Source: a virus. Taken from it: a DNA stretch of 23,259 nucleotides. The notes under the pieces were generated by a model. That model did not search any database, was not told the DNA's origin, and worked only from the letters and a program-made list of their open reading frames with translations. The stretch is taken from the IMG/VR virus record IMGVR_UViG_3300028920_000275, positions 1 through 23,259 of that record, one strand, 5' to 3'. Position numbers and translations under genes: made by a program. Below, piece after piece: positions 2,538 through 22,483 of the stretch. How positions within the stretch are numbered: the first letter of the stretch is position 1; every line of letters starts with the position of its first letter.

Positions 2538-3467
2538 TTACGGTCCGTCATGCAGAGCGATTTCTTCAGGCCATCCCATCTCGACCCCAATAACTGAATA
2601 GGCACGGAAACGAACATTATCGCTGAGATCAACGTCAGCCATATCCTTCAGGATAACTTCGTTGTAATTGCTTACGGATTCCGTTCCTACGTACAGGTTG
2701 CTCTTATGGGACAGTACAATCTCATGGGTATTCAGCCCCGGAGCAATCGCCATCGGAATGCCCACATAATTCAGGGGCTTATCACCGGCTTGGTACTGAT
2801 CCATGAACCCTTGGTTAGCCAGAGCCTGCTTATAGGCAGCAGCCACATTCGGTGCAACCCAATACATCAGGTCAGGGGCATCGAACCAGGGCTCCGGTGC
2901 AGCAATGTCGTACAGGTCTGCCAGATCCTGAACAACGGTTGTGGAATCCACCACTGAAGGTGTGGTCTGCTGTCCACCCGGAACATCAGCCAGCATTTTC
3001 TTCATTAAACCGTCAATCAGATTGTACGACACGGCAAGTGTATCACCACGCCACATCAGAAATTCGATTTCCCTTCCAACGTGTCCGAGGATCTCCTTGA
3101 TCACGCTGTCGATCACATCCTGAGCCAATTGACGGTTCGCACCTGTTCCCATTCGAACGCTCGACCAATCAACGTGCTTGAAGTCAGCTTTACACATTTG
3201 AAGATTGACCTCGAACGGCTCTACGTCAAGGCTCCTTTCATCAATGTCCACCGTGCCGACGGGGGTGAAATCGCAGGTTGGTACCGCAATCAGATCGGTG
3301 GCTGCAAGCCTGCGAATTTTATAGGACTTATTTACATCGTCCTTGATGGTAATATTCCCGTCCCCAATTGTCTTGGCTCCGAAGAACATTTTATTGATCA
3401 ACTCCGTAGCGGCCTCGCCGATATATGAAGTCGTCAAATTCAGTGTAGTTGCAAATTTGTAACGCAT
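2538..3467 (-). CDS. Major capsid protein
   Basis: The 309-aa product begins MRYKFATTLNLTTSYIGEAA. Its size, its lack of signal peptide or membrane segment, and its position 11 bases after a protease/scaffold gene fit a major head protein of HK97-like fold. Visible features are a central helical segment (NRQLAQDVIDSVIKEILGHV, about residues 111-130) like the spine helix region, a polypeptide of mixed strands after it, and a C-terminal part (SHKSNLYVGTESVSNYNEVI, about residues 253-272) of the kind found in the peripheral domain. There is no long N-terminal delta-like coiled coil, consistent with the scaffold being carried by the upstream protease protein. It would build the icosahedral shell. 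The family is inferred from context and general character; no catalytic motif is expected. Confidence 0.8.
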   Translation of the reverse strand: MRYKFATTLNLTTSYIGEAATELINKMFFGAKTIGDGNITIKDDVNKSYKIRRLAATDLIAVPTCDFTPVGTVDIDERSLDVEPFEVNLQMCKADFKHVDWSSVRMGTGANRQLAQDVIDSVIKEILGHVGREIEFLMWRGDTLAVSYNLIDGLMKKMLADVPGGQQTTPSVVDSTTVVQDLADLYDIAAPEPWFDAPDLMYWVAPNVAAAYKQALANQGFMDQYQAGDKPLNYVGIPMAIAPGLNTHEIVLSHKSNLYVGTESVSNYNEVILKDMADVDLSDNVRFRAYSVIGVEMGWPEEIALHDGP

Positions 3468-3478
3468 TTTAGTAGAAT

Positions 3479-4852
3479 TTAAGGTTTAGACTTTTCCTTT
3501 GCCTCCGACACAAATCGGCTGAGACCCTGAACAATGGCTTTCTTTTCTCCACCATCCGGAACCTCGTCTTTGTGGTTTGCACCGGGAAGGTTCAACTCCG
3601 TTCTGAGGGATTTGGTTACAGCCTTGATCTGGCTGTTGAAATCCTGCTTTAGTTCAGCCTTGAATGAAGCAATGATTTCTGCAATACCATCGATCAGTTT
3701 ATCAAGCTGCTCGGCTTTCAGACCTCCGTCATCATGTTCCATGTCTTCGGTGTCCTCTGTGGCAGCTCTCAGATCACCGACCACACCTTCTTCGGCAACA
3801 ACGAGAATGTTTCCGTCTGACAGAACATATTCGCCTGTCGGTACAGGAACTTCCTCGCCATCCACAGTGTGAGTGATAGCTGCGCCAACCTCCAGAACTT
3901 CACCAGGGAAGTTAATTGTGACGGCAGTTCCTTCGGCATCCTGAGCTTCAATGCTACCGAATTTCTCGGCTCCGCTTTCTTCTCCCTGATCCTCCGGCTC
4001 TCCCTGCTTTGGAAGCGAAAACTCTCCGGCTTCCTGAATGAGAACGATCTTGCTGTCGCTGTCAAGTTGGATCTTGCTCCCATTTTCCAGAACATATTCA
4101 CCCGACTGGATTGGGTACTCGCTTCCATCCTCATAAACTCCAACAACCTGATCGCCCACGGCAAAGGTTTCATTTTTTACTTCGATTTCCCATTTCGAGA
4201 TCTGGCTGATTTTAGCCATCCTCTGACGGACAGCTTCAGCCTGTTCCTCGCTGAACAAGCCCCTGATCTTATCAAGGTATTTGTCCAATGTTGTTTTTTT
4301 CATCTGTTTGGATTGTTTGATTAATTCCTGAGTGAATACTCCCTCGACAGAAAACCCAGAAACAGATTTCTCCTTTACCAAAGCCCACACATCATCGTTT
4401 AGAACCTTCACCTTCACGAACCATGATCCCACTGGTAGGTCGAACCCGTAAAGAGCAGATTTATCCTTTTCAGGATCTTCCACAATCCACGATTCGACAA
4501 CCGAAAGGTCGTTCAGTGTCGCCTCATGCTCCAACGTCATGCTGTTTTGTTTGCCTTGTAATAGAAACCTTTCAGATAATTCCCGAATGGTATCCTCCTT
4601 GAAAAAGACGAAAAATTCCTCGCCCTCGTCATTGACCCGATAGATCAATTTATCCGGCACCATTGCCGGACCTGCCAAGATTCGCTGTTCCTTATCAATC
4701 GTTTTGAACATGAACCGAGGATCGGGTTTCATTTTTTGACCCTCTGAAAAGGCGATCCATGTCTGCTCGATTGCAGGGTGTTTGACCAGTGAAATGGCTG
4801 TAATACCCTCGCCAGTCTTGGCTTCCTGTAGCTTGAGTTCGATAATTTTCAT
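3479..4852 (-). CDS. XkdF-like prohead protease fused to a scaffold-like C-terminus
   Basis: The 457-aa product begins MKIIELKLQEAKTGEGITAI and contains the order of motifs typical of the XkdF-like (S78_2) prohead serine protease: VKHPAIEQTWIAFSE (about residues 23-37), LAGPAMVPDKLIYR (59-72), FFVFFKEDTIRELSERFL, LEHEA with a candidate catalytic His109, VGSWFVKVKV, and SVSGFSVEGVF with a candidate catalytic Ser168. The protease matures the capsid by cutting the scaffold and itself. From about residue 180 it changes to an acidic low-complexity part (about 220-370, with repeated GEYVLENG / GEYVLSDG units) and a helical stretch (about 375-455) that could act as the scaffold domain. It starts 10-17 bases after a promoter box and opens the head block, directly before the capsid gene. 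Confidence 0.8.
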   Translation of the reverse strand: MKIIELKLQEAKTGEGITAISLVKHPAIEQTWIAFSEGQKMKPDPRFMFKTIDKEQRILAGPAMVPDKLIYRVNDEGEEFFVFFKEDTIRELSERFLLQGKQNSMTLEHEATLNDLSVVESWIVEDPEKDKSALYGFDLPVGSWFVKVKVLNDDVWALVKEKSVSGFSVEGVFTQELIKQSKQMKKTTLDKYLDKIRGLFSEEQAEAVRQRMAKISQISKWEIEVKNETFAVGDQVVGVYEDGSEYPIQSGEYVLENGSKIQLDSDSKIVLIQEAGEFSLPKQGEPEDQGEESGAEKFGSIEAQDAEGTAVTINFPGEVLEVGAAITHTVDGEEVPVPTGEYVLSDGNILVVAEEGVVGDLRAATEDTEDMEHDDGGLKAEQLDKLIDGIAEIIASFKAELKQDFNSQIKAVTKSLRTELNLPGANHKDEVPDGGEKKAIVQGLSRFVSEAKEKSKP

Positions 4853-4868
4853 CTGGTATCGGTTTTCA

Positions 4869-4899
4869 CAAAGTTAGGTTACGTATTTTTCACTTAAAA
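4869..4899 (-). promoter_or_regulatory. Bacteroidota-type promoter of the head block
   Basis: On the minus strand a perfect -7 box TAACTTTG (4876-4869) follows a TTTT -33 element (4899-4896) at exactly 19 bases, against a consensus of TTTG-N19-TAnnTTTG. The protease ATG at 4852 would sit only about 10 bases after the expected transcription start. The surrounding 4861-4904 segment is 32/44 identical, without gaps, to 16681-16724 in front of the fibre cassette. Confidence 0.75.
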
Positions 4900-5027
4900 A
4901 CACAACGGTTCACATTTGATCGAAAACGTCAAAGATCTGCCGAGATTTCCATTCAACGCCCTTTCATGTATGTTTGTATCACCGTTATATAGATCCATCG
5001 ACTTCCTGATAATCAATAAGTTAGAAC

Positions 5028-5043
5028 CGTGTTAAAGAACACG
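5028..5043 (-). terminator. Hairpin directly after the tape measure stop
   Basis: The sequence CGTGTTCTTTAACACG on the minus strand forms a perfect 6-bp stem with a CTTT loop, beginning at the base after the TAA of the tape measure gene. There is no following U run, so it could be an RNA-stabilising 3' end or a weak terminator separating the tail block from the head block promoter downstream. The palindrome is seen directly; the role is inference. Confidence 0.3.
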
Positions 5044-6660
5044 TTATAAAGTTACGTCCTCCATCCTCTTTCGCTCGATTTCTTGCTCTGCCGTTACATC
5101 GCTCGACACGACATACGTTTTTACGGCTCCCCTTGTCGTGCTGTCCTGAATGATTGAAACCTGTTGCGGTATGCCTTGATCAGCGTTCATCAGATCAGCC
5201 ATGTTCACATTTCCCTGTGGTTGAGCCAATGATACAGAAGGAGTTGCCGGACTCGCTGCCCCTGTCGGATCGGGTGTTTGGATAATCTTGCGGACGTTTG
5301 CCATTCCAACAGCCAAAGCAGCAGCTGCCGCTATTGGTGCCAGAACAGAACCCACCACCGGGATGCCGATTGCTGATTTATAAGCACTCATGGCTGACAG
5401 AATAGCTGTCCTCGTAGCATCTGCAACCTGAACACCTTTGGCAATCCTTGATCCTTCGCCCAAAAAACCAAGCAAAGCCGTTACCGTGTTGGCATAGATT
5501 CCTTCCTTTACAGCAGCCAGTCTCTGTTCATTTTCTATCTGAGTCTGGATAAGTTGCTCTTCGTAATCGAACCTGTCCTGAGCATTTTTGATCAGTGCTT
5601 CGTTATTTGCCTTGTCAATAGCTTCAGCCTGAGTTGCGAAATCCTTTTGGAGATCAAGCATTGATTTCTCGAACTCCTCTTCCAGAAGCAATTCGAGTTC
5701 CATTTCCTCTTTTCTGGCATCAGACTTGGCTTTTGCCTCCGCTTCAAGTGCTTTCTGTTTCTCCGCTTCCTCCCTTGCTTTCTCACTGGCTGCAGCAGTT
5801 GCAGCTGCCCTCGCTGCATTGTCCAATTCGTTCAGCCTGTTTTTAAGTTCCCTCTGTTTTGCCAGTGACTGAGTTTGCAGATCAATCAGCTTCGCTTCCT
5901 CTTCCGCTACCGCTCTGAGTTGTTCCCTTGTCCTCAATTCCTCCGGTGTATTGGCAATCGCTTGCCTTGCAATCGCAAGCCTCTGTTCCTGAAGAACAAT
6001 ATTGTCTGCAAGAATCTCTTTTTCTATTCTGTCGGCCTCAATGATCGCTGCCCGTCTTTCATCAAAGCTCTTTGTTAGATCTCTGGTCAAAAAGATCAGT
6101 TCTTCAATCTGTTGCCTACGAGTCGAATTGGCAACGATGTTATCTGTTTCAGCTTCAAACAGCCTCCTTTGCATGGCTTCAAATTCCCGTGCAGCTGCCG
6201 TTGCTTCCCTGATCTCATCACCGACACCCTTCACCGCATCTCCCATTTCCTGGAACCCTTCCTTGAATTTTCCAGTGAAGATCTTTCCAAGTGCTTTAAA
6301 TATGTTCGCTGCCCTCGCTACGATAACATCCATTGCAGCGCTCAGTGAAGCCATGATATCGTTTAATTTATCAGCCCCTGCCTGAGTCTTCGAGAAAGCC
6401 TTAACTAATCCGGCAAAAGCAGCCACAATAGCTGCTATCACCGCCACGATAGGATTTGCCAGAAGTGCCTTAAATGCTTTCGATACAGCACCGATGCCCT
6501 GTTTCACTTTCCCCAACGGCCCCGGCACACCGTCAAGCTGTTGTTCCAATCCACCAGTCGATTTGGCAACCTTGTCGGTGGATTCCGCTAACTGTTCAAG
6601 GCTTTCCTCTGCCCCTTCAGTCCGGATGTCGATAGTTTTTACAACGGTTTCCTCGGCCAT
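5044..6660 (-). CDS. Tail tape measure protein (short)
   Basis: This 538-aa product is Ala-, Glu- and Lys-rich and largely helical. It has a hydrophobic segment at about residues 64-90 (ALLANPIVAVIAAIVAAFAG), a long coiled-coil region at about 160-390 rich in EE, KA and RR pairs, and a second hydrophobic glycine/alanine-rich segment near 415-460 (IPVVGSVLAPIAAAAALAVG). These are the marks of tape measure proteins, which set tail length and take part in DNA passage through the host envelope. With about 1.5 angstroms of tail per residue, as known for siphoviruses, a tail tube of roughly 80 nm is expected. It lies downstream of the chaperone and the tail-tip genes, the reverse of the usual tape-measure-then-tip order. 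Its start overlaps the end of a 48-aa gene by 22 bases. Confidence 0.8.
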   Translation of the reverse strand: MAEETVVKTIDIRTEGAEESLEQLAESTDKVAKSTGGLEQQLDGVPGPLGKVKQGIGAVSKAFKALLANPIVAVIAAIVAAFAGLVKAFSKTQAGADKLNDIMASLSAAMDVIVARAANIFKALGKIFTGKFKEGFQEMGDAVKGVGDEIREATAAAREFEAMQRRLFEAETDNIVANSTRRQQIEELIFLTRDLTKSFDERRAAIIEADRIEKEILADNIVLQEQRLAIARQAIANTPEELRTREQLRAVAEEEAKLIDLQTQSLAKQRELKNRLNELDNAARAAATAAASEKAREEAEKQKALEAEAKAKSDARKEEMELELLLEEEFEKSMLDLQKDFATQAEAIDKANNEALIKNAQDRFDYEEQLIQTQIENEQRLAAVKEGIYANTVTALLGFLGEGSRIAKGVQVADATRTAILSAMSAYKSAIGIPVVGSVLAPIAAAAALAVGMANVRKIIQTPDPTGAASPATPSVSLAQPQGNVNMADLMNADQGIPQQVSIIQDSTTRGAVKTYVVSSDVTAEQEIERKRMEDVTL

Positions 6661-11278: not shown

Positions 11279-11983
11279 ATCCGAAAAAAGTTATTGTTTC
11301 CATTATCCCCGACTCGACCACCTTTTGCATATTTACGAAGTTTCTTCCTGAAACAGCATAGATGAAGTGATACCAGCCCCACGAATCATATTGAGAATCG
11401 TCTGCGTTCCCGGGACTTGGAATGAGTCGTTTAAAATACTTAAGCACTTCTGCGTGACGAGCAAAAAAAAACTGGCTGCACCCCTGACCACATCAAAGGT
11501 CATGTGCTTGAGAAATATCGCCTGCCTCTGTTCCCTATCCTTTGGATCTTCCTTCGCATAGGATTTCAACCTGTACCGATCACCGTATTTGGCATCTATC
11601 GGCCTGTAAAGCACCGCCATGATTTTATGAAGGTTCTCTGCGTACTTGTCCTGTTGAGTCATTTGATCAATGTCGATGAAAGCCCCGGTTTCCATGTCCC
11701 GTACATCCTCGATGAAAGCATAGTCCCTGCCCAAGTATTTAACATACCTAACAAGCGGCTCTGTTCCTCCCCGGCTTGTCATGCTGAAAACCTTATCGTA
11801 AACCCTGTCAAGATCCTCCAGAGTTATCTGAGCAATTTCCTGCGCTGTCCTGTTGCACATGATCGCCACGATATGGATCTTTTTTGCGAACTCGTCAATG
11901 TCTGGATTCTTATCAATTAACAGAACCTTTTGAACCTGTTCAAGTGTGATTTCGCTCGTTTTTGTTGGAATCGTCAGTTTCAT
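11241..11983 (-). CDS. Tail assembly chaperone, -1 frameshift fusion product
   Basis: A second frame lying at -1 relative to the chaperone continues past its stop to 11241. It encodes a region with DSWGWYHFIYAVSGRNF and METITFFGYEAE, which resembles the second half of tail assembly chaperones in Bacteroidota phages (W-Y-x-x-I-Y-x-L-A, then x-x-F-L-A-Y). It has no good start of its own; only a GTG at 11447 is available. A -1 slip on the T9 run at 11463-11471 joins it to the first frame and gives a 247-aa product. In lambda the equivalent gpG-gpT fusion binds the tape measure protein and helps tail tube assembly. A plain homopolymer sequencing error would also fuse the frames, but the site fits the canonical T-TTT-TTG heptamer. 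Confidence 0.7.
11333..11983 (-). CDS. Tail assembly chaperone, unshifted product
   Basis: The 216-aa product begins MKLTIPTKTSEITLEQVQKV, an opening typical of tail assembly chaperones of Bacteroidota phages. It is mostly helical and predicted soluble. The start at 11983 was chosen over a longer frame from 12016 because its ATG overlaps the previous gene's stop as ATGA and because the family opens with this sequence. Residues near 176-182 (AASFFLL) are encoded by the T9 slippery run, after which a minority of ribosomes should shift. The unshifted protein ends MLFQEETS. By analogy with lambda gpG it coats the tape measure protein until the tube polymerises around it. Unusually, the tape measure gene is not next to it but about 4.7 kb downstream. 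Confidence 0.7.
   Translation of the reverse strand: MKLTIPTKTSEITLEQVQKVLLIDKNPDIDEFAKKIHIVAIMCNRTAQEIAQITLEDLDRVYDKVFSMTSRGGTEPLVRYVKYLGRDYAFIEDVRDMETGAFIDIDQMTQQDKYAENLHKIMAVLYRPIDAKYGDRYRLKSYAKEDPKDREQRQAIFLKHMTFDVVRGAASFFLLVTQKCLSILNDSFQVPGTQTILNMIRGAGITSSMLFQEETS
11462..11471 (-). other. Slippery sequence for -1 ribosomal frameshifting
   Basis: On the minus strand the chaperone reads AGT TTT TTT TTG CTC, so nine T residues (11471-11463) are followed by G (11462). The last seven bases form T-TTT-TTG in frame, a canonical X-XXY-YYZ -1 site. The -1 frame is open from here to 11241. I did not model a downstream stimulatory structure. Confidence 0.7.
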
Positions 11984-12216
11984 ATTTTCAGTTTTTCTCT
12001 CAATAGTCTGAACCAAGTCCGAGCTTTGAGTTCCTTATTCCTTGCCACAAGCCCTTCGATCATTTCTTCCTGTTCCCTAACCCTGTTCTGGCTTTCTTCC
12101 AGAAGCACACCAAGCTGCTGATTGGAGTCAAACAGTTTCAAACAATCGGAGATCAAGGCTTGCTTATCTCTCGAAACAAGGCTTTTCTCAAGCTCGAACC
12201 GGTTCTGTTTTATCAT
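11980..12216 (-). CDS. Small coiled-coil protein, unknown function
   Basis: The 78-aa product begins MIKQNRFELEKSLVSRDKQA and is almost entirely charged and helical, with heptad-like spacing of Leu, Ile and Val in LFDSNQQLGVLLEESQNRVR and EEMIEGLVARNKELKAR. A short dimeric or trimeric coiled coil is likely. The ATG at 12216 overlaps the stop of the preceding fibre gene as ATGA, and its own TGA overlaps the chaperone start as ATGA, so this start is preferred over a longer frame from 12372 that shadows the fibre gene. Function is unknown. Its location after the fibre cassette would suit a fibre-assembly or attachment helper, which is inference. Confidence 0.7.
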   Translation of the reverse strand: MIKQNRFELEKSLVSRDKQALISDCLKLFDSNQQLGVLLEESQNRVREQEEMIEGLVARNKELKARTWFRLLREKLKI

Positions 12217-12806
12217 TCTATTCTGTCGATAGAAATAATTGGTTCGCAAGTAATTATTCCAGTTCCACCGAACGCAATCTGGAAACTTAACTGATCCGGT
12301 GCCACAATATCCAGAAAATCGACCCAGTTTACGGTAAGTGCTTCCCCTGCCGCAATCTGACCCCAAGCCCAAAGGGGGTTATAAAACAAACTACCGCCAA
12401 CAGCGAAAACAGCCTGAATCTGGACAGACCCTGTAAATGAGGTCGAAAAGAAATTCCAGGTAGATAAGAAGCGATACTTGCCTATCGCCAGACCGATATT
12501 CGGATTTGCCGGTGTGAAATCTGAACCAATGTTATAGACAACTATGTCGAAAAGTTCAGTAACGGGTAAAGTTTGGGGCGGTCCGACGTTATATGGCGCA
12601 ATCATACCTCCCGCTAAACTGACCCCTAACTGAGCAAGCGACCCGCCACCGCCACCGCCGACTGCGATCCACGATGTTCCGTCACAATACATCAGGCCAC
12701 CATCAGCAATAGAATGAACCAATGCCCCGGCCTCAAGATTCAAGCCTGTCGTACTCGGTACAACTCCCGCCTGTAATTTGTACGCTGAATTTTTTGTCGT
12801 TCCCAT
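12213..12806 (-). CDS. Fibre-like protein 4: shared anchor plus jelly-roll-like tip
   Basis: The 197-aa product begins MGTTKNSAYKLQAGVVPSTT. Residues 1-50 match the module shared by all four genes of the cassette: a K-N-S-A-(F/Y)-K start, an E-x-G-A turn, and a D-G-x-x-x-Y-x-D-G-x-x-W ending (here YCDGTSWIAVG). A Gly-rich hinge (VGGGGGGS) follows. The remaining ~140 residues are beta-rich (GKYRFLSTWNFFSTSFTGSV, IQAVFAVGGSLFYNP) and end in CEPIISIDRIE, as in trimeric C1q/TNF-like jelly rolls often found at fibre tips. It is the shortest member and has no WGDGT domain or solenoid. It probably uses the same docking site as its neighbours. Fold assignment of the tip is tentative. Confidence 0.6.
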   Translation of the reverse strand: MGTTKNSAYKLQAGVVPSTTGLNLEAGALVHSIADGGLMYCDGTSWIAVGGGGGGSLAQLGVSLAGGMIAPYNVGPPQTLPVTELFDIVVYNIGSDFTPANPNIGLAIGKYRFLSTWNFFSTSFTGSVQIQAVFAVGGSLFYNPLWAWGQIAAGEALTVNWVDFLDIVAPDQLSFQIAFGGTGIITCEPIISIDRIE

Positions 12807-12810
12807 TTCT

Positions 12811-13932
12811 TTATTCGTTTACAGTTATATTCCATCCCCTGCCTAACAGTGTAGCTTTGGCTGCATCGCTTGCAGAAGTCCTTTTCTCGTTGTTGCCTCC
12901 CAAATTGAGATCGAAATTGTTATTTGTCCCGGCTGCAAATGACAACAGCACGTTATCCACTTCATTCGCTTTCAGCCCGCAGTTCTGCAACAGGATCTCG
13001 TTTCCGAAACCACTATCAAAAGACCAAGCATTGGCTGTTGAGAACCTGATCTTGCAGCCATAGAACCACAAAAAGCTGAGGATGGTCATTACATGAAAGC
13101 CTGAGATATCACCCGTAACCTTTGTGTTCCCAAATTGTAGGTTGTTTACATTCAACGCTGAAAGGCTCGATACATCACCGCTAACGTTGGTGTCCTGAAC
13201 AATCAATGAGATCAATGAAGTCAAAGCAGACCACGAACTTACATCTCCACGTAAATTAGATTCAGCAATTACCAATGTGTTTAAGCTCGTCAATGCTGAC
13301 CATCCCGACACATCTCCCACGACTTTCGTGTTGTTAAGCCTGATCTGAATTAAAGAAGTCAAATTCTTAAAATTGGTCACATCTCCTTCGACACTGGTGG
13401 TTGGCAATAAAAGAAATTGAAGCCCTGCAATGTTTTCGAATCCTTCAATGTTCCCGTAAATTGTAGACGTGTTTGCCCTGATGTAAGTCAAGTTAACCAG
13501 CTCAGACCAATCAGTAACGATCAGCTGTTTCAAAGCTGCCTGATTGTTAATATCAAGCCTCGTCATGAGTTTATAGTCACCTTCCACATAGAAATAGTAA
13601 ACCCCCGGAGTCGTGTAAGCGGTAACATGAGTGACATTTACAGCATCATTCCCCGGTACTACAGTCACGGTTCCATCCCCGTCATGGATTGTCAAGGAAT
13701 TTGCCAATGGCAACCGGAAAACGAATGTAAACTGCGTCACCCCATCAAACTCTATGAACATCCTGATCGGCACGCTCGGAGTGCCCTGCTGAAGCCATCC
13801 GGCACGTTCCCCGTAATACATCTTACCGTCTGCCCTGTTGAAAGTGATCGCTCCCGGCTCTGGGTAGTAATCTGAAACGTCAGCAACGCTTCCCGTCTTG
13901 ACCTTGAAGGCCGAATTTTTCAAATTCTCCAT
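12811..13932 (-). CDS. Fibre-like protein 3: anchor, WGDGT-like domain, leucine-rich solenoid
   Basis: The 373-aa product begins MENLKNSAFKVKTGSVADVS and carries the shared anchor in residues 1-50 (DGKMYYGERAGWLQQG at its end). Residues 55-125 form a domain with HDGDGTVTVVPG, a variant of the WGDGT motif seen in BspA-like surface proteins of Bacteroidota, followed by YTTPGVYYFYVEGDY. From about 125 to 295 lies a leucine-rich solenoid with repeat starts G-D-(V/I) at residues 160, 183, 206, 229, 252 and 274, a period of 22-23. The C-terminal part ends with an Asn-rich turn and TLLGRGWNITVNE, like the cap of BspA-type repeats. It probably presents a ligand-binding surface on the virion. It has no jelly-roll C-terminus, unlike proteins 1 and 2. 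Confidence 0.65.
   Translation of the reverse strand: MENLKNSAFKVKTGSVADVSDYYPEPGAITFNRADGKMYYGERAGWLQQGTPSVPIRMFIEFDGVTQFTFVFRLPLANSLTIHDGDGTVTVVPGNDAVNVTHVTAYTTPGVYYFYVEGDYKLMTRLDINNQAALKQLIVTDWSELVNLTYIRANTSTIYGNIEGFENIAGLQFLLLPTTSVEGDVTNFKNLTSLIQIRLNNTKVVGDVSGWSALTSLNTLVIAESNLRGDVSSWSALTSLISLIVQDTNVSGDVSSLSALNVNNLQFGNTKVTGDISGFHVMTILSFLWFYGCKIRFSTANAWSFDSGFGNEILLQNCGLKANEVDNVLLSFAAGTNNNFDLNLGGNNEKRTSASDAAKATLLGRGWNITVNE
13048..13560 (-). repeat. Leucine-rich repeat array inside fibre-like protein 3
   Basis: About six coding repeats of 22-23 codons are visible, each with the pattern A-L-T-S-L-x-x-L-x-(I/V)-x-x-(T/S)-x-(V/L)-x-G-D-V-S. The best copies are the third to fifth, where the codons ALTSL and GDVSS recur nearly unchanged. 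Fibre-like proteins 1 and 2 carry more degenerate versions of the same unit. Confidence 0.7.
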
Positions 13933-13935
13933 ATT

Positions 13936-15291
13936 TTAAGAAAAAGATTTTAAAGAAACATCGTCTAAGTAAATTCCTCCATTATTCCCAGAAGTTCCTT
14001 CCCTGAATATCAAAGAAATAGAAGTCGAAGCAGATTTGATATAAAATTGTATATCCTGAAAACCAAGAAAATCCTCCCAATCATATATGGCGAACCTGAT
14101 TAGCGAAGAATCATAGCGGGGTTGCCAGTAGTTCCCCTGCCCATTCCCTAAGTGACGAACCTTAAAAGCCCACTGATAATAGTTCCCGGAAATTATGGTA
14201 AATGTTTTTGCGATCTGTGCGTTCGCAGTCGGATTTGGATTAGCATTTACTTTAAAAGCAAACTTTCCGACCCTTTTTTGTATGCTTTGACTTATAAACT
14301 CATTTGGAGATCCAAGTCCAGTTGGTGTCCATCCAGTAACAGCATCAGCCTCTCCGATAGAATCACTGGCTGCATTCGCATCAGTGTGCAATTCAGGACC
14401 ATAAGTTAACCCTGAAACATTCGCTGAATTTGTCAATACAAGAAAAGTATTGTTATCCAAATATGTTTTTAAAGCTGCATTGCTGGCTGGTGTCCTGCTA
14501 TTTGAAGAACGAACATACAGAGTATATCCAGTAACATTTTTGAAAGATTCAATCGCATTATCGACCATCCTTCCGGTAAATTTACTATCAGGTTGATTCG
14601 ATCCGATCATTACAAATATATTTCCAACCGTGTCGAGCCAGGGATCTGACCCATCAAACGTGAGATTATCACATTGTGAAGCGGCAAGCGCTATAAGCGG
14701 AAGGTTTCTTAATTGGTTAATATCGCCATAGATAGCGGAATTGTAAGATACATTAATATTTGATAAAAGGGGTAAAGTCGCAAGTTGCGCTATATCGCCC
14801 CCGACTTTACTACCAGGTAAAGCAAAATCCGTAAGATTTGGCATTAAAGAAACCCATTTATCTATTTTACCATATAGTTCAAAATCACCATAATTAACAA
14901 CCGTCGGACCGTAAACATAGAAATAGGTAAATAAAGATAAATTTCCAGTTATCCAGATAGCATTATAACCCTTATCAGAATAATTACTATCTACCGTTAC
15001 AGGGCTTGTTCCGTTCCCCGCCGTATTCGTTACGGTCCCATCGCCCCAATGGATAGTATAAGGTTCTAAAGCTGGCGCTTTAAAGATTATTCTTACTTGA
15101 AATTCAGTAAAAAATAACTGAAAAGCCGGAAGAATATCCTCACCCTGCGGAGCCCAGAAATAGCCATCAGACCAGTACAGCTTTCCATCTGGTTCATTTA
15201 TGACCATTGCCCCGGCTTCCGGCTTTAATTGATATACGTCAGGCACCTGTTCGGCCTGAACCTTGAAAGCTGAGTTTTGTAAGATTGTCAT
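13936..15291 (-). CDS. Fibre-like protein 2: anchor, WGDGT domain, solenoid, jelly roll
   Basis: The 451-aa product begins MTILQNSAFKVQAEQVPDVY. Anchor residues 1-50 end DGKLYWSDGYFWAPQG. A domain with IHWGDGTVTNTAGNGT (about residues 80-95) follows, then degenerate leucine-rich units (GKIDKWVSLMPNLTDF, GGDIAQLATLPLLSNI, GDINQLRNLPLIALA) at about 145-215. From about residue 298 a module opens YGPELHTDANAASD and ends GGIYLDDVSLKSFS, with the strand pattern of carbohydrate-binding jelly rolls of the CBM4/9 kind, in which the final strand reads (I/V)-x-(I/L)-D-(D/N)-V-S. This suggests binding to a host surface glycan. The same module ends protein 1. The gene lies 9 bases downstream of protein 1 and 3 bases upstream of protein 3. 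Confidence 0.65.
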   Translation of the reverse strand: MTILQNSAFKVQAEQVPDVYQLKPEAGAMVINEPDGKLYWSDGYFWAPQGEDILPAFQLFFTEFQVRIIFKAPALEPYTIHWGDGTVTNTAGNGTSPVTVDSNYSDKGYNAIWITGNLSLFTYFYVYGPTVVNYGDFELYGKIDKWVSLMPNLTDFALPGSKVGGDIAQLATLPLLSNINVSYNSAIYGDINQLRNLPLIALAASQCDNLTFDGSDPWLDTVGNIFVMIGSNQPDSKFTGRMVDNAIESFKNVTGYTLYVRSSNSRTPASNAALKTYLDNNTFLVLTNSANVSGLTYGPELHTDANAASDSIGEADAVTGWTPTGLGSPNEFISQSIQKRVGKFAFKVNANPNPTANAQIAKTFTIISGNYYQWAFKVRHLGNGQGNYWQPRYDSSLIRFAIYDWEDFLGFQDIQFYIKSASTSISLIFREGTSGNNGGIYLDDVSLKSFS

Positions 15292-15301
15292 GGTATGGAT
15301 T

Positions 15302-16672
15302 TTAGAATGTTACTTTTCGCACTGAAACATTATCAAGATAAATGCCTCCAATGTCCACCCCGGGGAACTGTTCTCTGAACGCAATTTCAAGGCTTGTATC
15401 TGGAGCAAGCCGATAGTATGCTATTCTCGTAAATTCAGTATCCCACGGAAAAACATTCTGAGCCGGATATGAATTAAATATTCTCGCGCTCCACCTTCCC
15501 CATATTAGTGGCATTTTTATATCTCCTTCATGGTATCCACCGGAACCCGTATGCCTCCAATCCCAAGCGACACGCATAACATCTCCCGCTACAACCGTGA
15601 TAGGCGTGGTGAGTGCTATCTCTGCAAAATTTGTGGGATTTGGTGTGCAGTCACATTTTATCGAATAGGCTCCTTTCGTCTTTCTCAAAGTTTCGACTGC
15701 AAATATATTCGGTGGGGCAAGTCCGGTTGCCGTGAATGCCGACAAGCTGTTTGACTCTGCCCCTGCCGGATCACTGATAGGTGAAGGATCGGTAAATAAC
15801 TCAGGACCACATTTTTCTTCGAACAAATTAACAGGCTCATTAATCGAAAAAATGTTCCCATTATTTACGATCTGTTCAACATATGGATTGGATTCAGGAC
15901 CCCTCGACTCTTTTTCAACAATAGCTATCGTTTGGTTTGTCAGGTTGGATAATGCTTTCAAAGCATTATGGATCTCTGTTCTCGACCAGCCGTTCTCTTT
16001 AAACTGCACCTGATTACGGTTGACATGAAAAGCATCTGATCTGGTGAAGGATGTTTTTGGCAGTTCCCAGATTGTAATGTTATCGATCATGTCTTTCAGA
16101 GTGGAAACATCACCACCAACATTCGGGAGCCTTAAAAGGTAAATCTCACACCCAATAGGAAGATTGGCAAGAACAGATACATCTCCAATGGCTCCACAGG
16201 CTTCTAAGGTGAGATAATAAAGTAACTGACATTCCACAAGCCAGTCAATTCTGAATCTAAGGTTTCGATGTCCTCCAACATTAAAGGAAGTAATGTCTTT
16301 ATAATCACCGCCAAACTTTATAAAATAGCCACCCTCTTCAGTATATGTGTGAATAAGATGAATAACAGATGAACCCTGCCCCGGTATTGTTTCAATTGTA
16401 CCATCACCCCAATCTACGATTAGATTTTTGCCCACAGCCAACCGGAACCAGAAATTGGTGTTGATATTGTCAATTTTTTCAACGCCATCATAGAAGAATG
16501 TCATCTGAGCCCTTTCCTGAGAACCGACAGGCTTCCATCCCAACGAATCAGCTTCATACATCTTGCCGTCACGTTCATTGTAAACAATTGCACCAAGTTC
16601 AGGATCGATCAATGCAATATCTTTTACAGGTGCAGCTTGAATTTTAAATGAGGAATTTTTTAGAACAGTCAT
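15302..16672 (-). CDS. Fibre-like protein 1: anchor, WGDGT domain, solenoid, jelly roll
   Basis: The 456-aa product begins MTVLKNSSFKIQAAPVKDIA and is first in the fibre cassette, starting 16 bases after a promoter -7 box. Its anchor (residues 1-50) ends DGKMYEADSLGWKPVG. VDWGDGTIETIPGQG (about 86-100) and HTYTEEGGYFIKFGGDYKDI (about 108-127) give a clear PKD/BspA-like WGDGT domain. Short leucine-rich units follow (GDVSVLANLP, GGDVSTLKDM, about 163-195). The C-terminal jelly-roll module (about 288-456) opens CGPELFTDPSP and ends GGIYLDNVSVRKVTF, parallel to that of protein 2. A function as a virion-displayed receptor or glycan binder is inferred. Whether it sits on tail or head cannot be told from sequence. 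Confidence 0.65.
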   Translation of the reverse strand: MTVLKNSSFKIQAAPVKDIALIDPELGAIVYNERDGKMYEADSLGWKPVGSQERAQMTFFYDGVEKIDNINTNFWFRLAVGKNLIVDWGDGTIETIPGQGSSVIHLIHTYTEEGGYFIKFGGDYKDITSFNVGGHRNLRFRIDWLVECQLLYYLTLEACGAIGDVSVLANLPIGCEIYLLRLPNVGGDVSTLKDMIDNITIWELPKTSFTRSDAFHVNRNQVQFKENGWSRTEIHNALKALSNLTNQTIAIVEKESRGPESNPYVEQIVNNGNIFSINEPVNLFEEKCGPELFTDPSPISDPAGAESNSLSAFTATGLAPPNIFAVETLRKTKGAYSIKCDCTPNPTNFAEIALTTPITVVAGDVMRVAWDWRHTGSGGYHEGDIKMPLIWGRWSARIFNSYPAQNVFPWDTEFTRIAYYRLAPDTSLEIAFREQFPGVDIGGIYLDNVSVRKVTF

Positions 16673-16724: not shown

Positions 16725-17924
16725 TCACGACACAGAATATTCCCCGTATCTTGGCTTCTCCCTGATATGCACTATACCGTAACGAATTGCATCAAGTGAG
16801 TGATTCCAGTTATCGACAGGCTTTCCCGTCCATTCACCGTCACGGTCTTTTGCAAAAGAATAGTTTCTGAGTTCCTTGATTGTGTTTATGGATCTCTTTG
16901 TCACATTCAATCGGAAGGATCTCACAGTTTGGATTCCGAAGCTAACACTATCCGGACCCTTTATGCTGTCCACCACATTCAGACCCATCCTGCGTAAATC
17001 TGCATTGCTTTTCGGCTCTGCACTATCAGCAACGCATTGATCCCTTCCCGCCACTGGCTTCAAAAGGTTGAAGATATCACTGTTGAACATCCCCGGTTTA
17101 TATTCCAGTTCATCGAACCAAAACTGCCCGTCAGCATATCTCAATTCGCCTATCGCTGTCGGATCATGGGTGAACCCGTAGTCAATGACGAAAACCCTCC
17201 GTTTGTATTCCTCTGGCAATTCGTCACATTTAAACCAGTGCGTTCCCTCTTTGTAGATAAGCCCTTCAAGTGTGCCATATTCACCCAAAACAAAGACCCT
17301 GTAAAAGTTCGGATCAGTCCTTGCCCTTGTTTCCAATGCGTCCACAATGTTCCGCTCGACAAGCATTTCCCCGGTTTCGACATCAACGTTCTTTTTATAT
17401 GTCGAATGAATAACCGCCACATCGTCCCGCTCGTCCTGTAATTTGGTAGCCCAGAACGGTGCGACAGGGTTCCACGTCAGCAGGATCTGCCTCCGTGTCC
17501 GGATTTCCACCTGATCGAATATTCCCTTTGTCACATTGTAAGCCTCGTCAATCAGAACGAAATCATGCCTCATGGCATAGAACCTTTGCTCGTCATCTGC
17601 CGGGATGAACTGAAGGATCGAACCTGTTTCAAAAAAGTAAGTGTTGTCCAGTTTGTTGAACCTGTCAGGCTCGTACTTTTCTTTCATAACGATTCTCGCC
17701 CAATCCCGGTAGACCGATTTCTTGATCACCGGAATTGATTCACCGATAACCGTGATCACCAATGGCTTTGGAAACTCCATGCCATATGCGGTCAAATATT
17801 GAAGTGCGCTGATTGTTTTTGATGAACTCGATCCACCGTACAGGCAGATTATTCTTTTGTCGAAATGCTCTGCCAGTTCATCGAATACCTTTGTGGTTGG
17901 ATATCTAAGTCCCGGTCTTGTCAC
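16725..17924 (-). CDS. Terminase large subunit
   Basis: The 399-aa product is the packaging ATPase-nuclease that moves DNA into the prohead through the portal. Visible motifs are a Walker A variant GGSSSSKT (residues 30-37), a Walker B strand FVLIDEA (122-128) with the catalytic Glu after the Asp, a coupling motif LTWNP (149-153), and an RNase-H-fold nuclease with candidate metal-binding Asp248 (FVIDYGFTHDP), Asp300 (VADSAEPKSNADLR) and Asp378 (NHSLDAIRYG). This order and the ~400-residue length fit the Terminase_3 (PBSX-like) family. The start is a GTG at 17924 that overlaps the small subunit by 20 bases and has AAAGG shortly upstream. A promoter follows its stop, so terminase belongs to the right-hand operon. 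Confidence 0.93.
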   Translation of the reverse strand: MTRPGLRYPTTKVFDELAEHFDKRIICLYGGSSSSKTISALQYLTAYGMEFPKPLVITVIGESIPVIKKSVYRDWARIVMKEKYEPDRFNKLDNTYFFETGSILQFIPADDEQRFYAMRHDFVLIDEAYNVTKGIFDQVEIRTRRQILLTWNPVAPFWATKLQDERDDVAVIHSTYKKNVDVETGEMLVERNIVDALETRARTDPNFYRVFVLGEYGTLEGLIYKEGTHWFKCDELPEEYKRRVFVIDYGFTHDPTAIGELRYADGQFWFDELEYKPGMFNSDIFNLLKPVAGRDQCVADSAEPKSNADLRRMGLNVVDSIKGPDSVSFGIQTVRSFRLNVTKRSINTIKELRNYSFAKDRDGEWTGKPVDNWNHSLDAIRYGIVHIREKPRYGEYSVS

Positions 17925-18314: not shown

Positions 18315-19349
18315 TCAATGAGAATTATAAAGCGTCCTTCCGAATAGATTGAACATATAGGCCATGTTCCAGTTTCTTCCCCAGTCCTCCGAATCATTGT
18401 AGATGTAATACAGGTAATGGTTCGGATCTCCACGGGTAGCATTGCACAGCCAGATAATTTTATTGTTGGCATCTGTTCCGGGTGCCTGAGCCTCGATACA
18501 GTATTTGTGTCCTCTCTGGATTATTGCACCGCAGAAGTCCATCTGGTACCAGCAGTAATCTTGGTCATCTGTTTCAATGAATTTAGCGGGATAGAATTGA
18601 GTCAGCAATGTGTCCATTGGTTGATCGTTTTCATCCAGTTCAATGAGGGTGAAGTATATTGAGTCCCACGGATCACCCTGTTTCGCCATCATAATTTGAA
18701 GCCAGTTTGTCACATAGCTGTCGGTTGCAACGAATACGGTTCTTTTCCTGTAGTCTGGATTCTGAAATGTAGGATAGGTAAGGCTGTCCACATCGTTCCA
18801 ATTGTCTTTTAGTTCCGGATAAAGGTGATCCCTGTAATACAGCCAAATCTGGTGTGCGATCATTAATGAGTCAAAGCTACTGGAATCAATTTTGCAATAC
18901 AACAGCCATGATCTTGCCGAATCCTGATACATCCCGATTGGGATAAATGCTGTTGAGTCATACCAGAATGAGGGCGGGATAGTGTCAACGGTGATCACAT
19001 CAAATTGCATCGAACTCGTATTGCCTGAACAATCAATAGCAACTACTCGGACAATAATATCGTTGCCCGGGATTAATTTCTGCCCCGGTTCAGGTGTCTG
19101 GTAAAATGTGTCGATACAGCAATTTTCCCTGACCTCGATTGCCTCCGTGTAATCAGGCAGATAATATTCGCACGAATCATTGACAAAATAAAACTGGGTC
19201 GGTATCTGGCTCATGCAAGTACATCCCGCCATCAGTAAAGCAATGAGTCCGAGAATGAAAAGTATGGGTACAAGCATATAACGGAAGCAACCGTAATTGT
19301 CGCCCCTGCCCTGCCCCTGCCTTGGGTCTGTTTTTCTGAATTTTTTCAT
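18315..19349 (-). CDS. Phage-encoded lipoprotein with Ig-like and carbohydrate-binding-like domains
   Basis: The 344-aa product begins MKKFRKTDPRQGQGRGDNYG, a basic leader longer than usual. A hydrophobic stretch at about 25-41 (MLVPILFILGLIALLMAGC) ends in a lipobox with candidate lipidated Cys43. Residues about 55-125 look like an HYR/Ig-type domain (NDIIVRVVAIDCSGNTSSM, then FDVITVDTIPP). The C-terminal 90 residues contain YCIEAQAPGTDANNKIIWLC and EDWGRNWNMAYMFNLFG, the pattern of a small beta-sandwich module often appended to secreted proteins. Lipoproteins in phage genomes often act at the infected-cell envelope, for example in superinfection exclusion; that is a hypothesis here. It overlaps the upstream gene as ATGA and lies just before terminase, an odd place for it. 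Confidence 0.7.
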   Translation of the reverse strand: MKKFRKTDPRQGQGRGDNYGCFRYMLVPILFILGLIALLMAGCTCMSQIPTQFYFVNDSCEYYLPDYTEAIEVRENCCIDTFYQTPEPGQKLIPGNDIIVRVVAIDCSGNTSSMQFDVITVDTIPPSFWYDSTAFIPIGMYQDSARSWLLYCKIDSSSFDSLMIAHQIWLYYRDHLYPELKDNWNDVDSLTYPTFQNPDYRKRTVFVATDSYVTNWLQIMMAKQGDPWDSIYFTLIELDENDQPMDTLLTQFYPAKFIETDDQDYCWYQMDFCGAIIQRGHKYCIEAQAPGTDANNKIIWLCNATRGDPNHYLYYIYNDSEDWGRNWNMAYMFNLFGRTLYNSH

Positions 19350-20177: not shown

Positions 20178-20939
20178 TCAAATTCCTTTTATCGGTATGG
20201 TTACTGATCCATTCAATAGGTCGCCCATCTTTTCCCCCGGAAGGTTATACCTGATTACCCTCTCGCCCCATTTAGCCATGATTGCTTTGCAGTACATTGT
20301 CTCCCGCTCCCGTGATCTCATTGAAACAATCCCCCCAGAATTTACGCCGTGATCACAGTCATAAGCCAGTTTCTCCACCCTCAGAAGCATCCGGTACTTC
20401 TGCAGTTGTTGCAGTGCCATGTCATAATCGTCCTTTGTTCCCATCCGTTCATCGAATAAAAGCGGATGGTCAAGGTGAACCTGAAACGGCCCCAAGGTGA
20501 TATTGGTCAGACTGAAAGGCTTCCATTCCTTAAATTCCCGCTCGTCCCCTGCTGTCCTCTGAGATACGCCCCACATCTTGCAGCCAAATTCAGCTGCGAC
20601 CTGAGTATATTGATCCAAAACAGGCATTAGCAAATCCACTGGTAGCTTACGAAAGCTGATAAATTGCTTCTTTTCTGCCGGACGACCCTCCATGTAAAGC
20701 AGATATTTTACGTCATCGTCTATCATGCAGAGCGGTCTGGGTATGTTTTTCAAGATCCAGTTCCTTTTTTTTGGAATCGAGCCATCCTCTGAATCTGGAA
20801 TAACGATCATTTTTTTCTGAGGCAAGACTTTTAAATATTCATCTTTTTGAGATTCAGGCAAAACGAATTTAGCGGAGGTAAAATATTCCAAGCCGGTCAA
20901 GCAATGCGAACGTTTATAGGTTGGAACGACAATGTTCAT
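20178..20939 (-). CDS. TAGT-like DNA-modifying glycosyltransferase B
   Basis: The 253-aa product begins MNIVVPTYKRSHCLTGLEYF. It has a GT-A-like layout: a P-(S/T)-Y-x-R opening strand and loop, FVLPESQKDEYLK (about residues 25-37), IPDSEDGSIPKKRNWIL (about 47-63), the nucleotide-sugar/metal motif CMIDDDV (Asp74-76), a later FDERMGTKDDYDMALQ (about 162-177) with candidate acidic catalytic residues, and GVNSGGIVS (about 198-206). This matches my knowledge of TET/JBP-associated glycosyltransferases (TAGT), predicted to glycosylate hydroxymethylated pyrimidines in phage DNA. It is a diverged paralogue of the enzyme at 21174-21887. It follows a 58-aa gene by ATGA-type overlap. A sugar-transfer role on other acceptors (teichoic-like or capsular glycans) cannot be excluded. 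Confidence 0.65.
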   Translation of the reverse strand: MNIVVPTYKRSHCLTGLEYFTSAKFVLPESQKDEYLKVLPQKKMIVIPDSEDGSIPKKRNWILKNIPRPLCMIDDDVKYLLYMEGRPAEKKQFISFRKLPVDLLMPVLDQYTQVAAEFGCKMWGVSQRTAGDEREFKEWKPFSLTNITLGPFQVHLDHPLLFDERMGTKDDYDMALQQLQKYRMLLRVEKLAYDCDHGVNSGGIVSMRSRERETMYCKAIMAKWGERVIRYNLPGEKMGDLLNGSVTIPIKGI

Positions 20940-21173: not shown

Positions 21174-21887
21174 TCAAACTCCTTTGTACGGTGATCTCGG
21201 AGTCAAGAAAACTCCCCTTTTTTTATCATAATTCAAGACATCTTTTCCCCACTTTTTCAACAGCCTTTCGCTGTCCTCCATCGTTTCCTCTGGGAACTCA
21301 ATGCCCCCGCTTTGCTTCCTGTCTTTCATCCTGAACTGGATGCCAATGTGGTTAAACTTCAGCGTGGCTTTGTCTTGGTGAATATGCTGAAGCCAGAAGT
21401 CCATGTCGTCCTGGCGGTCAAGCCTCTCGTCAAATCTCCTTTTGGTAACCAGTATTCCCAATATCCAGTAAAAGAACCTCCCAAAAGAGAACGGCCTGTT
21501 TACTTCCTGATGAAGCGGTTGGATATCTGAGTTGAATCCAAACAGGTGCAATTGAAGGTCAAGGCATAGTTGAAAACCCTGTTCGAAAAGTGTTAGCATC
21601 TGGTTCTCATTTAGCACCTTCCTGTTGATATTGTGACCAGCTTCAACAAAGTCATCGTCGATCATTACTATCTGAGTCAATCCCTGATCGAAAGCATAAT
21701 CCAGTATAGCGTTCCTTTTCCTTGCTATTTTCCCGTCCTTGCTGTCAGGTATCGCAATGATCCTGCCCGGATAGTTCTTTTCATAGTCCTCTCGTTGTGA
21801 TTCCGGAACCACTATCTGAGCCGATTTGAAGAACTCAGCACTATAAACCGCATTAGGTCTGCCATATGAAGGTATGAATAGATTCAT
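21174..21887 (-). CDS. TAGT-like DNA-modifying glycosyltransferase A
   Basis: The 237-aa product begins MNLFIPSYGRPNAVYSAEFF. It shares the plan of its paralogue: an N-terminal P-S-Y-G-R loop, IVVPESQREDYEKNYPGR (about residues 25-42), IPDSKDGKIARKRNAILD (about 46-63), IVMIDDDF (Asp77-79) as the metal/nucleotide-sugar motif, FDERLDRQDDMDFWLQ (about 152-167) and a late RKQSGGIEF (about 190-198). The IARxRN and DDD elements are those I associate with the TAGT family of phage DNA base glycosyltransferases. The start overlaps the ParB-fold gene as ATGA. Having two non-identical enzymes side by side suggests either two sugars added in sequence or different acceptor specificities. DNA as substrate is inferred, not seen. 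Confidence 0.7.
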   Translation of the reverse strand: MNLFIPSYGRPNAVYSAEFFKSAQIVVPESQREDYEKNYPGRIIAIPDSKDGKIARKRNAILDYAFDQGLTQIVMIDDDFVEAGHNINRKVLNENQMLTLFEQGFQLCLDLQLHLFGFNSDIQPLHQEVNRPFSFGRFFYWILGILVTKRRFDERLDRQDDMDFWLQHIHQDKATLKFNHIGIQFRMKDRKQSGGIEFPEETMEDSERLLKKWGKDVLNYDKKRGVFLTPRSPYKGV

Positions 21888-22483
21888 TTCAGCCTGTTGA
21901 TAACCGGAGCCCCTTTGATCACCCTTCCAATTCCTACCTTTTGCGACTTCACTGTTTTGATAGCCGACTTCACTTCCTTCAATCCCAATTTATCCTTCGC
22001 CACTTCCCAATCCATTGCATTATCGAAATACAAGACTACGTAATTGTGTTCAAGCATCAGCTCAGGGGAAAACTCAATCTCAGGTTTTACGGGATCCGCT
22101 TTCGGTTTGATGTCTATTCCCATTCCCTTCAGAACGGCAGGCTCATATTGTGACAGAAGAACTTCGTCATCCCAGAATCCGAAATGCTGATTGTCAATAA
22201 TTACATACTGTTTCCACTCGCCAGGGGAAAGATCTTTAAACTGCCGAACCCATTTCTTCGGTATTTTTGTATAGCCAAGCTCAAGCAAAGCCTTGTATCT
22301 CTGGTTTCCTCCTTTTATAACATTGTTCTCGTCAATTACGATCCCATTGATTTCAAGCCCTTTAAGAAATGATTCAAGGTTGTTTTTGAGTGAGTCCATC
22401 CCTGCCCGTGTGATCTTGCGTGGGTTATCCTCATTCAATTTCAGATCCTCTAGCCTGATATTGTCTTCGCTTCCCTTTGCCAT
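21884..22483 (-). CDS. ParB-fold nuclease-like protein
   Basis: The 199-aa product begins MAKGSEDNIRLEDLKLNEDN. Residues about 9-110 carry the ParB/Srx fold: IRLEDLKLNEDNPRKIT (9-25), a strand and loop VIDENNVIKGGNQRYKALLE (49-68) containing the ParB box G-G-N-Q-R-Y-x-A (58-65), and IPKKWVRQFKDLSPGEWKQY. The C-terminal part (about 140-199) has VVLYFDNAMDWEVAKDKLGL and ends KVGIGRVIKGAPVINRLK, an extension I recall from phage versions that sit beside modification genes. Phage ParB-fold proteins may bind or nick DNA or bind nucleotides, and chromosome-type segregation is unlikely because no ParA is present. Overlaps with both neighbours (34 bases upstream, ATGA downstream) put it in one unit with the glycosyltransferases. 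Confidence 0.8.
   Translation of the reverse strand: MAKGSEDNIRLEDLKLNEDNPRKITRAGMDSLKNNLESFLKGLEINGIVIDENNVIKGGNQRYKALLELGYTKIPKKWVRQFKDLSPGEWKQYVIIDNQHFGFWDDEVLLSQYEPAVLKGMGIDIKPKADPVKPEIEFSPELMLEHNYVVLYFDNAMDWEVAKDKLGLKEVKSAIKTVKSQKVGIGRVIKGAPVINRLK

Follow-up and report, generated by a model that had tools for sequence, protein, structure and literature searches.

What is encoded by a run of four tandem genes that all begin alike and lie directly 3' of a phage terminase gene? The question is raised by the 23,259-base IMG/VR virus record IMGVR_UViG_3300028920_000275, which was analysed over its whole length (positions 1 to 23,259; 'the window'). Its structural genes are on the minus strand, and next to terL, from 16672 down to 12213, are four complete open reading frames (ORFs) on that strand, separated by just 3-10 bp. 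Their products, P0004, P0003, P0002 and P0001 in gene order, start with the same module of around 46 residues. These genes probably constitute an accessory array of virion appendage proteins, in which a common docking or trimerising module would carry exchangeable ends.

The shared N-terminal module

A preliminary description of this DNA had claimed four tandem genes with one N-terminal module, and this is borne out by an alignment of the first 50 residues, in which 12 columns are invariant (M1, N6, S7, K10, V16, E25, G27, A28, D35, G36, W46 and G50). P0001 and P0003, which are related through the module alone, match with an E-value of 7e-9, and a profile built from the four window modules, searched against phages as that description had suggested, retrieved 22 such modules in related phages; hence the similarity is far beyond chance. 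In the alignment of these 22, K10, G27, A28 and W46 are invariant and V16 is nearly so. The motif first given for the module stands only in part: E-x-G-A and W46 are present in all four window proteins, but P0003 starts Q-N-S rather than K-N-S, and the Y of P0001 is shifted by one. All 22 modules are N-terminal and all are found at one locus, the slot between terL and the tail genes; where contigs were searched from end to end, no module turned up outside this slot. In the structural model of P0003, the module consists of short strands at residues 14-16, 29-32, 37-41 and 46-48, with a predicted local distance difference test score (pLDDT) of about 82-91 across residues 11-50.

The second half of the module resembles, in sequence, a hairpin of known tail fibres. 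It matches residues 54-75 of S2-8, a tail fibre of Klebsiella phage K64-1 (25 bits), and, in one member, the tail fiber family phrog_13229 (E 1e-4), the common pattern being EAGAIVFDKSxxxMxYxDGxNW; however, the first half, NSSFKVKAGxV, was not found in S2-8, which is a different and longer fibre. Matches to plastocyanin (PDB, E 0.09) and to Pfam CG-1 were judged to have arisen by chance. A pattern recognised by eye, comprising a strand, a DTD turn and DG, is held in common with the N-terminal domain of Bordetella phage Mtd (Mtd_N, PF18454), but neither the window nor five related contigs contained a match to this family at E<=1, and hidden Markov model and hhalign comparisons of the module with BPP-1 Mtd were likewise non-significant. 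The module profile had no credible match in the PDB at E<=10 (the gp10-like XD-domain models themselves were not searched).

Domains behind the module

Past the module, the four proteins had been thought to diverge completely, which is incorrect for three of them. P0003 and P0004 are homologous over their full length (28% identical end to end, E 4e-55), and P0002 joins them over around 260 residues, being 30% identical to P0004 over 264 columns (E 2e-27) and 30% identical to P0003 over 235 columns (E 1e-21). It is only P0001 that has nothing in common with the others beyond residue ~50. Alignment of the leucine-rich repeat (LRR) type proteins reveals a domain order of module, PKD-like domain, LRRs and cap; P0003, P0004 and one protein from the related contig L002 have an additional terminal beta domain, and P0002 has more repeats without the terminal domain. 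The PKD-like domain was assigned by eye ('WGDGT'), there being no PKD match in Pfam.

The C-terminal part of P0002-P0004 has an LRR fold, as demonstrated by the middle of the P0003 model, an LRR solenoid (VIA Z about 9.9, root-mean-square deviation 3.8, 198 residues aligned), and by a five-sequence profile that matches LRR proteins in the PDB at E 1e-11; Pfam LRR_4 is detected in P0002 at E 8e-4, under the curated cut-off. The P0003 model has a mean pLDDT of 69.5, its last domain being a low-confidence beta-sandwich, and among predicted viral structures it best matches an uncultured-phage protein with a PKD domain (E 2e-7, low template modelling score). No beta-helix family was found in P0002-P0004, the domains of which are LRR and beta-sandwich. 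Among phage records, P0004 has no relative, and the matches of P0002 are confined to LRR regions, in Listeria phage records. The end piece of P0002 matches the end of gp10 of siphovirus P12024S (E 2e-4), a score reached by one of 2000 shuffles; gp10 was recovered with P0002 alone as the query but not with the C-cap profile, and the last 99 residues of P0002 as a query gave no matches.

The model of P0001 is poor (pLDDT 51.6). Its BFVD matches are to BclA, fibritin and tail fibres, and one member of the module-protein set has a BclA_C match (E 0.0096); these suggest, but do not show, that the P0001-type C terminus is a C1q/BclA-like trimeric knob. This domain has no sequence match in the PDB. 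The fibre-like character originally ascribed to the ends thus gains support from the LRR fold, from the end that P0002 shares with P12024S gp10 and from the BclA- and fibre-like matches of the low-confidence P0001 model.

An all-against-all BLAST comparison of the C termini from the module proteins sorted them into three families, between which no matches were seen at E 1e-3: the PKD/LRR type (n = 5), the beta domain of ~145 residues (n = 13) and a 'PHLHW' domain of ~192 residues (n = 4). The Peptidase_S74 chaperone is absent from all of the module proteins.

Since LRR and PKD-like domains are found in cell-surface proteins too, and the module genes have an accessory distribution, these could be proteins that never join the virion, such as intracellular or secreted accessory factors merely having a folding module in common. 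We consider this improbable, as the genes lie inside the structural cluster, the ends are fibre-like and reading the sequences by eye, without a predictor, revealed neither a signal peptide nor a membrane segment.

Contents of the slot in related phages

Relatives of the window were IMG/VR contigs of the same gene order, recovered with TerL and a 227 amino acid (aa) tail gene as queries; no relatives were recovered from viral contigs when the query was P0004, the four-row module alignment or a 388-aa gene, and scans of prokaryote genomes found no prophage. A look for other C termini behind the module, which the preliminary description had also proposed, found the three unrelated families at the same locus, in a copy number that ranges from zero to at least four. 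Whilst the window has four module genes, contig L003 has three, L004, L017, L018, L023 and L026 have two each, and L027 has at least two, with part of a third module where the contig ends. L002 and L006/L016 represent the same phage (99.95% identity over 10.5 kb): one contig takes in an LRR protein and part of another before it stops, and the other opens inside a beta-rich C terminus that is followed by a further module gene. This phage carries at least three module genes, and probably four or more. The near-identical phages L002, L006 and L047 (G001 and G004) came from two different metagenome sets.

The slot is without module genes in two lineages of the phage group. In L019 there is only a 98-bp gap, and in L020 and L021 a gene for a 142-aa membrane-like protein is found instead. 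Small membrane-like genes in this slot were noted at 7558-7944 of L018, where one precedes two module genes, and, on their own, at 3074-3502 of L020 and 3015-3443 of L021. These last two contigs, the appendage slot of which is empty, also encode near terL a protein recognised by eye as caspase-like (metacaspase) from its GHG and DSCFSG motifs (L020 83-895, L021 169-987).

Gene order and the separate tail fibre

The gene order of the window matches that of P12024S (NC_018271), a siphovirus of a Nonlabens/Persicivirga host, with counterparts for TerL, gp38, gp41, gp42, gp44, gp45, gp49, the protease, major capsid protein, tube-like protein and portal (E-values from 7e-55 to 9e-6). However, P12024S has neither the module nor the array: the last base of its terL stop codon is also the first base of gp38, so that the slot is empty. 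The P12024S gp10 gene, downstream of portal, is annotated as 'similar to putative tail fiber protein', and at the corresponding place the closest relative of the window encodes a 634-aa protein with an S74 chaperone; in the window itself, the region after portal falls beyond the contig end. Given this separate S74 tail fibre, and the empty slots of some relatives, the array is accessory, rather than the sole receptor-binding set. In L046, the position where relatives have the S74 tail fibre is occupied by a metallophosphoesterase-domain protein (3275-4528, minus strand; Pfam Metallophos, E 2e-4), next to what appears by eye to be a duplicate tube-like protein with a long extension fused to its C terminus (4528-5853, minus strand).

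A tail fibre encoded elsewhere would also be in keeping with the module proteins being decoration fibres of the head, comparable to phi29 gp8.5 or Hoc, which stick to surfaces and are not receptor-binding proteins of the tail. The genes adjoin terL, encode short proteins with an immunoglobulin- or PKD-like domain and are dispensable in relatives; furthermore, there is a match between one module and the virion structural protein phrog_20787 (E 0.003), and the head fibres of phi29 are capsid trimers able to help attachment (PMC11476376). Yet tail and neck genes come next downstream, with protease, major capsid protein and portal farther on, and the sole named similarities of the module hairpin and of the P0002 end are to tail fibres. 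Hence a capsid location, although the main rival to the proposed appendage array, seems rather unlikely.

Shine-Dalgarno-like leaders precede only two of 20 genes, and the nearest TerL and portal sequences belong to Bacteroidota phages, from which we infer a Bacteroidota host. The little-known group to which this phage belongs probably infects that phylum.

Histories of modules and C termini

The module and the C terminus do not diverge in step, as judged from pairwise identities. Between P0001 and L016 the modules are 70% identical and the C termini 32%, whereas between L004 and L026 the modules are 50% identical and the C termini 74%. The module of P0003 is closest (61%) to one in L003 that bears an unrelated C terminus, and the modules of L018 and L026 pair with support of 96/94, a pairing that their C termini reject (approximately unbiased test, p = 0.018). 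A single clade was rejected both for the four modules of the window (p = 0.0025) and for the three of L003 (p = 0.025); therefore recent duplication within the genome is not the simple origin of these sets, and in its simple form it was rejected for the window array. The array had been attributed to duplication combined with swapping of C termini: the former is not supported in its simple, in situ form, whilst the latter is consistent with the conflicting module and C-terminal histories in one family.

A model for the array

We propose that the beta-rich module serves, most likely, to dock each protein to a single type of particle site, or to trimerise there, and that behind it is an exchangeable, outward-facing domain that would contact the outside world. 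This may be a jelly-roll-like knob, a PHLHW domain, or a PKD-like domain plus LRRs to which a terminal beta-sandwich is added in some members. Module genes would be gained, lost and reshuffled in the slot that separates terL from the gp38-like tail gene, giving none to at least four per phage, and the main tail fibre is encoded separately, after the portal gene. Presence in the virion, the docking role, the trimeric state, binding to glycans or surface proteins and mixed occupancy of sites are all parts of the model that we infer. Because the modules are of one kind, different members could occupy equivalent sites side by side or in competition. A more far-reaching version can be put forward tentatively, and we rate it as doubtful: the conserved micro-module may be a plug-in display platform, through which equivalent sites are filled with unrelated ligands, as many as four or more, in combinations that can change. 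The virions would then be mosaics of mixed binding, and recombination at the boundary of the module would reassort the ligand set from phage to phage.

A number of points weigh against an array of virion appendages. The module in its full length is not covered by any family in Pfam, PHROG or the PDB; the set consists of short proteins (188-456 aa); and a position so close to terL is unusual for tail fibres. The fold matches of P0001 stay suggestive because of the low pLDDT of its model. Similarly, exchange between modules and C termini is likely, rather than proven, because the alignments are short and the tests at the level of C-terminal classes are non-significant, with these classes unrejected as module clades (PHW p = 0.41, LRR p = 0.14, jelly p = 0.06); the conflict between L018 and L026 is a single, post hoc four-taxon case.

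Should the module prove to act in docking, it would be a small transferable handle for optional binding domains in siphoviruses of Bacteroidota-like hosts, and the phages that have zero, two, three and four copies, together with the empty slot of a cultured relative, would form a natural series for testing the effect of extra appendages on adsorption. In that case the module would also be a search handle with which many 'hypothetical' genes in such phages could be annotated.

Comparison with known systems

The Ackermannviridae (PMC11414711), as well as phi Kp24 and K64-1 (PMC9700779), are known to have sets of receptor-binding proteins that share their N-terminal parts. The Ackermannviridae or CBA120-type clusters and those of phi Kp24 and K64-1 are like the array in having several receptor-binding genes with conserved N-terminal parts and exchangeable C-terminal specificity. 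They differ in docking through gp10-like XD domains and in consisting mostly of beta-helical depolymerases, whereas the array combines a module of ~46 residues with ends of LRR or jelly-roll-like type, and the slot that it occupies beside terL is sometimes empty. Modular arrays of multiple receptor-binding proteins are already known as a kind; it is the module, the terL slot and the LRR/PKD ends that appear to be new, no description of these having been found in the literature searched.

In the Ackermannviridae and phi Kp24, multi-gene clusters with a common N-terminal part and variable C termini form branched complexes, the members of which bind each other in order. An equivalent complex here is the least likely of the alternatives considered, which we rank in the order capsid location, intracellular role and ordered branched complex: every member has the same single short module with no second docking domain seen, the module profile lacks a match to a solved structure and the copy number goes down to zero.

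Layout of the locus and neighbouring genes

The features of the array and its borders are listed in Table 1. The start of the gp38-like tail gene is probably at 11983, MKLTIPTKTSEITLEQ. The small gene at the downstream border is retained in relatives without the array, and is absent from P12024S.

Table 1. Positions in the window of the module genes, their N-terminal modules and the genes bordering the slot.
Feature	Coordinates	Strand	Comments
Module protein 1, P0004, 456 aa	15302..16672	-	Module, PKD-like, LRR, C-terminal beta-sandwich domain
P0004 N-terminal module, residues 1-46	16535..16672	-	
Module protein 2, P0003, 451 aa	13936..15291	-	Module, PKD-like ~59-127, LRR ~140-290, C-terminal beta domain ~300-451
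P0003 N-terminal module	15154..15291	-	
Module protein 3, P0002, 373 aa	12811..13932	-	Module, PKD-like, extended LRR, C-cap; no terminal beta-sandwich
P0002 N-terminal module	13795..13932	-	
Module protein 4, P0001, 197 aa	12213..12806	-	Module and ~145 aa beta-rich domain, probably C1q/BclA-like jelly roll (low-confidence model)
P0001 N-terminal module	12669..12806	-	
Terminase large subunit, upstream border of slot	16725..17924	-	PHROG terminase, E 5e-31
Small charged gene, 78 aa, downstream border of slot	11980..12216	-	Possibly coiled-coil
Tail gene, P12024S gp38 homologue	11333..11983	-	phrog_32199 / phrog_166 tail protein; gp38 E 7e-14

On the other side of terL, a 344-aa lipoprotein-like ORF without a PHROG match (18315-19349, minus strand) lies between terS and a group of genes just upstream of terS, which comprises two glycosyltransferase-like genes and an adjacent ParB-like gene (20178-20939; 21174-21887, minus strand; 21884-22483, minus strand). 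The glycosyltransferase-like genes match phrog_842, annotated as a T4-type hydroxymethylcytosine (HMC) glucosyltransferase, and this gene set, which differs among the relatives, is perhaps a DNA-modification cassette.

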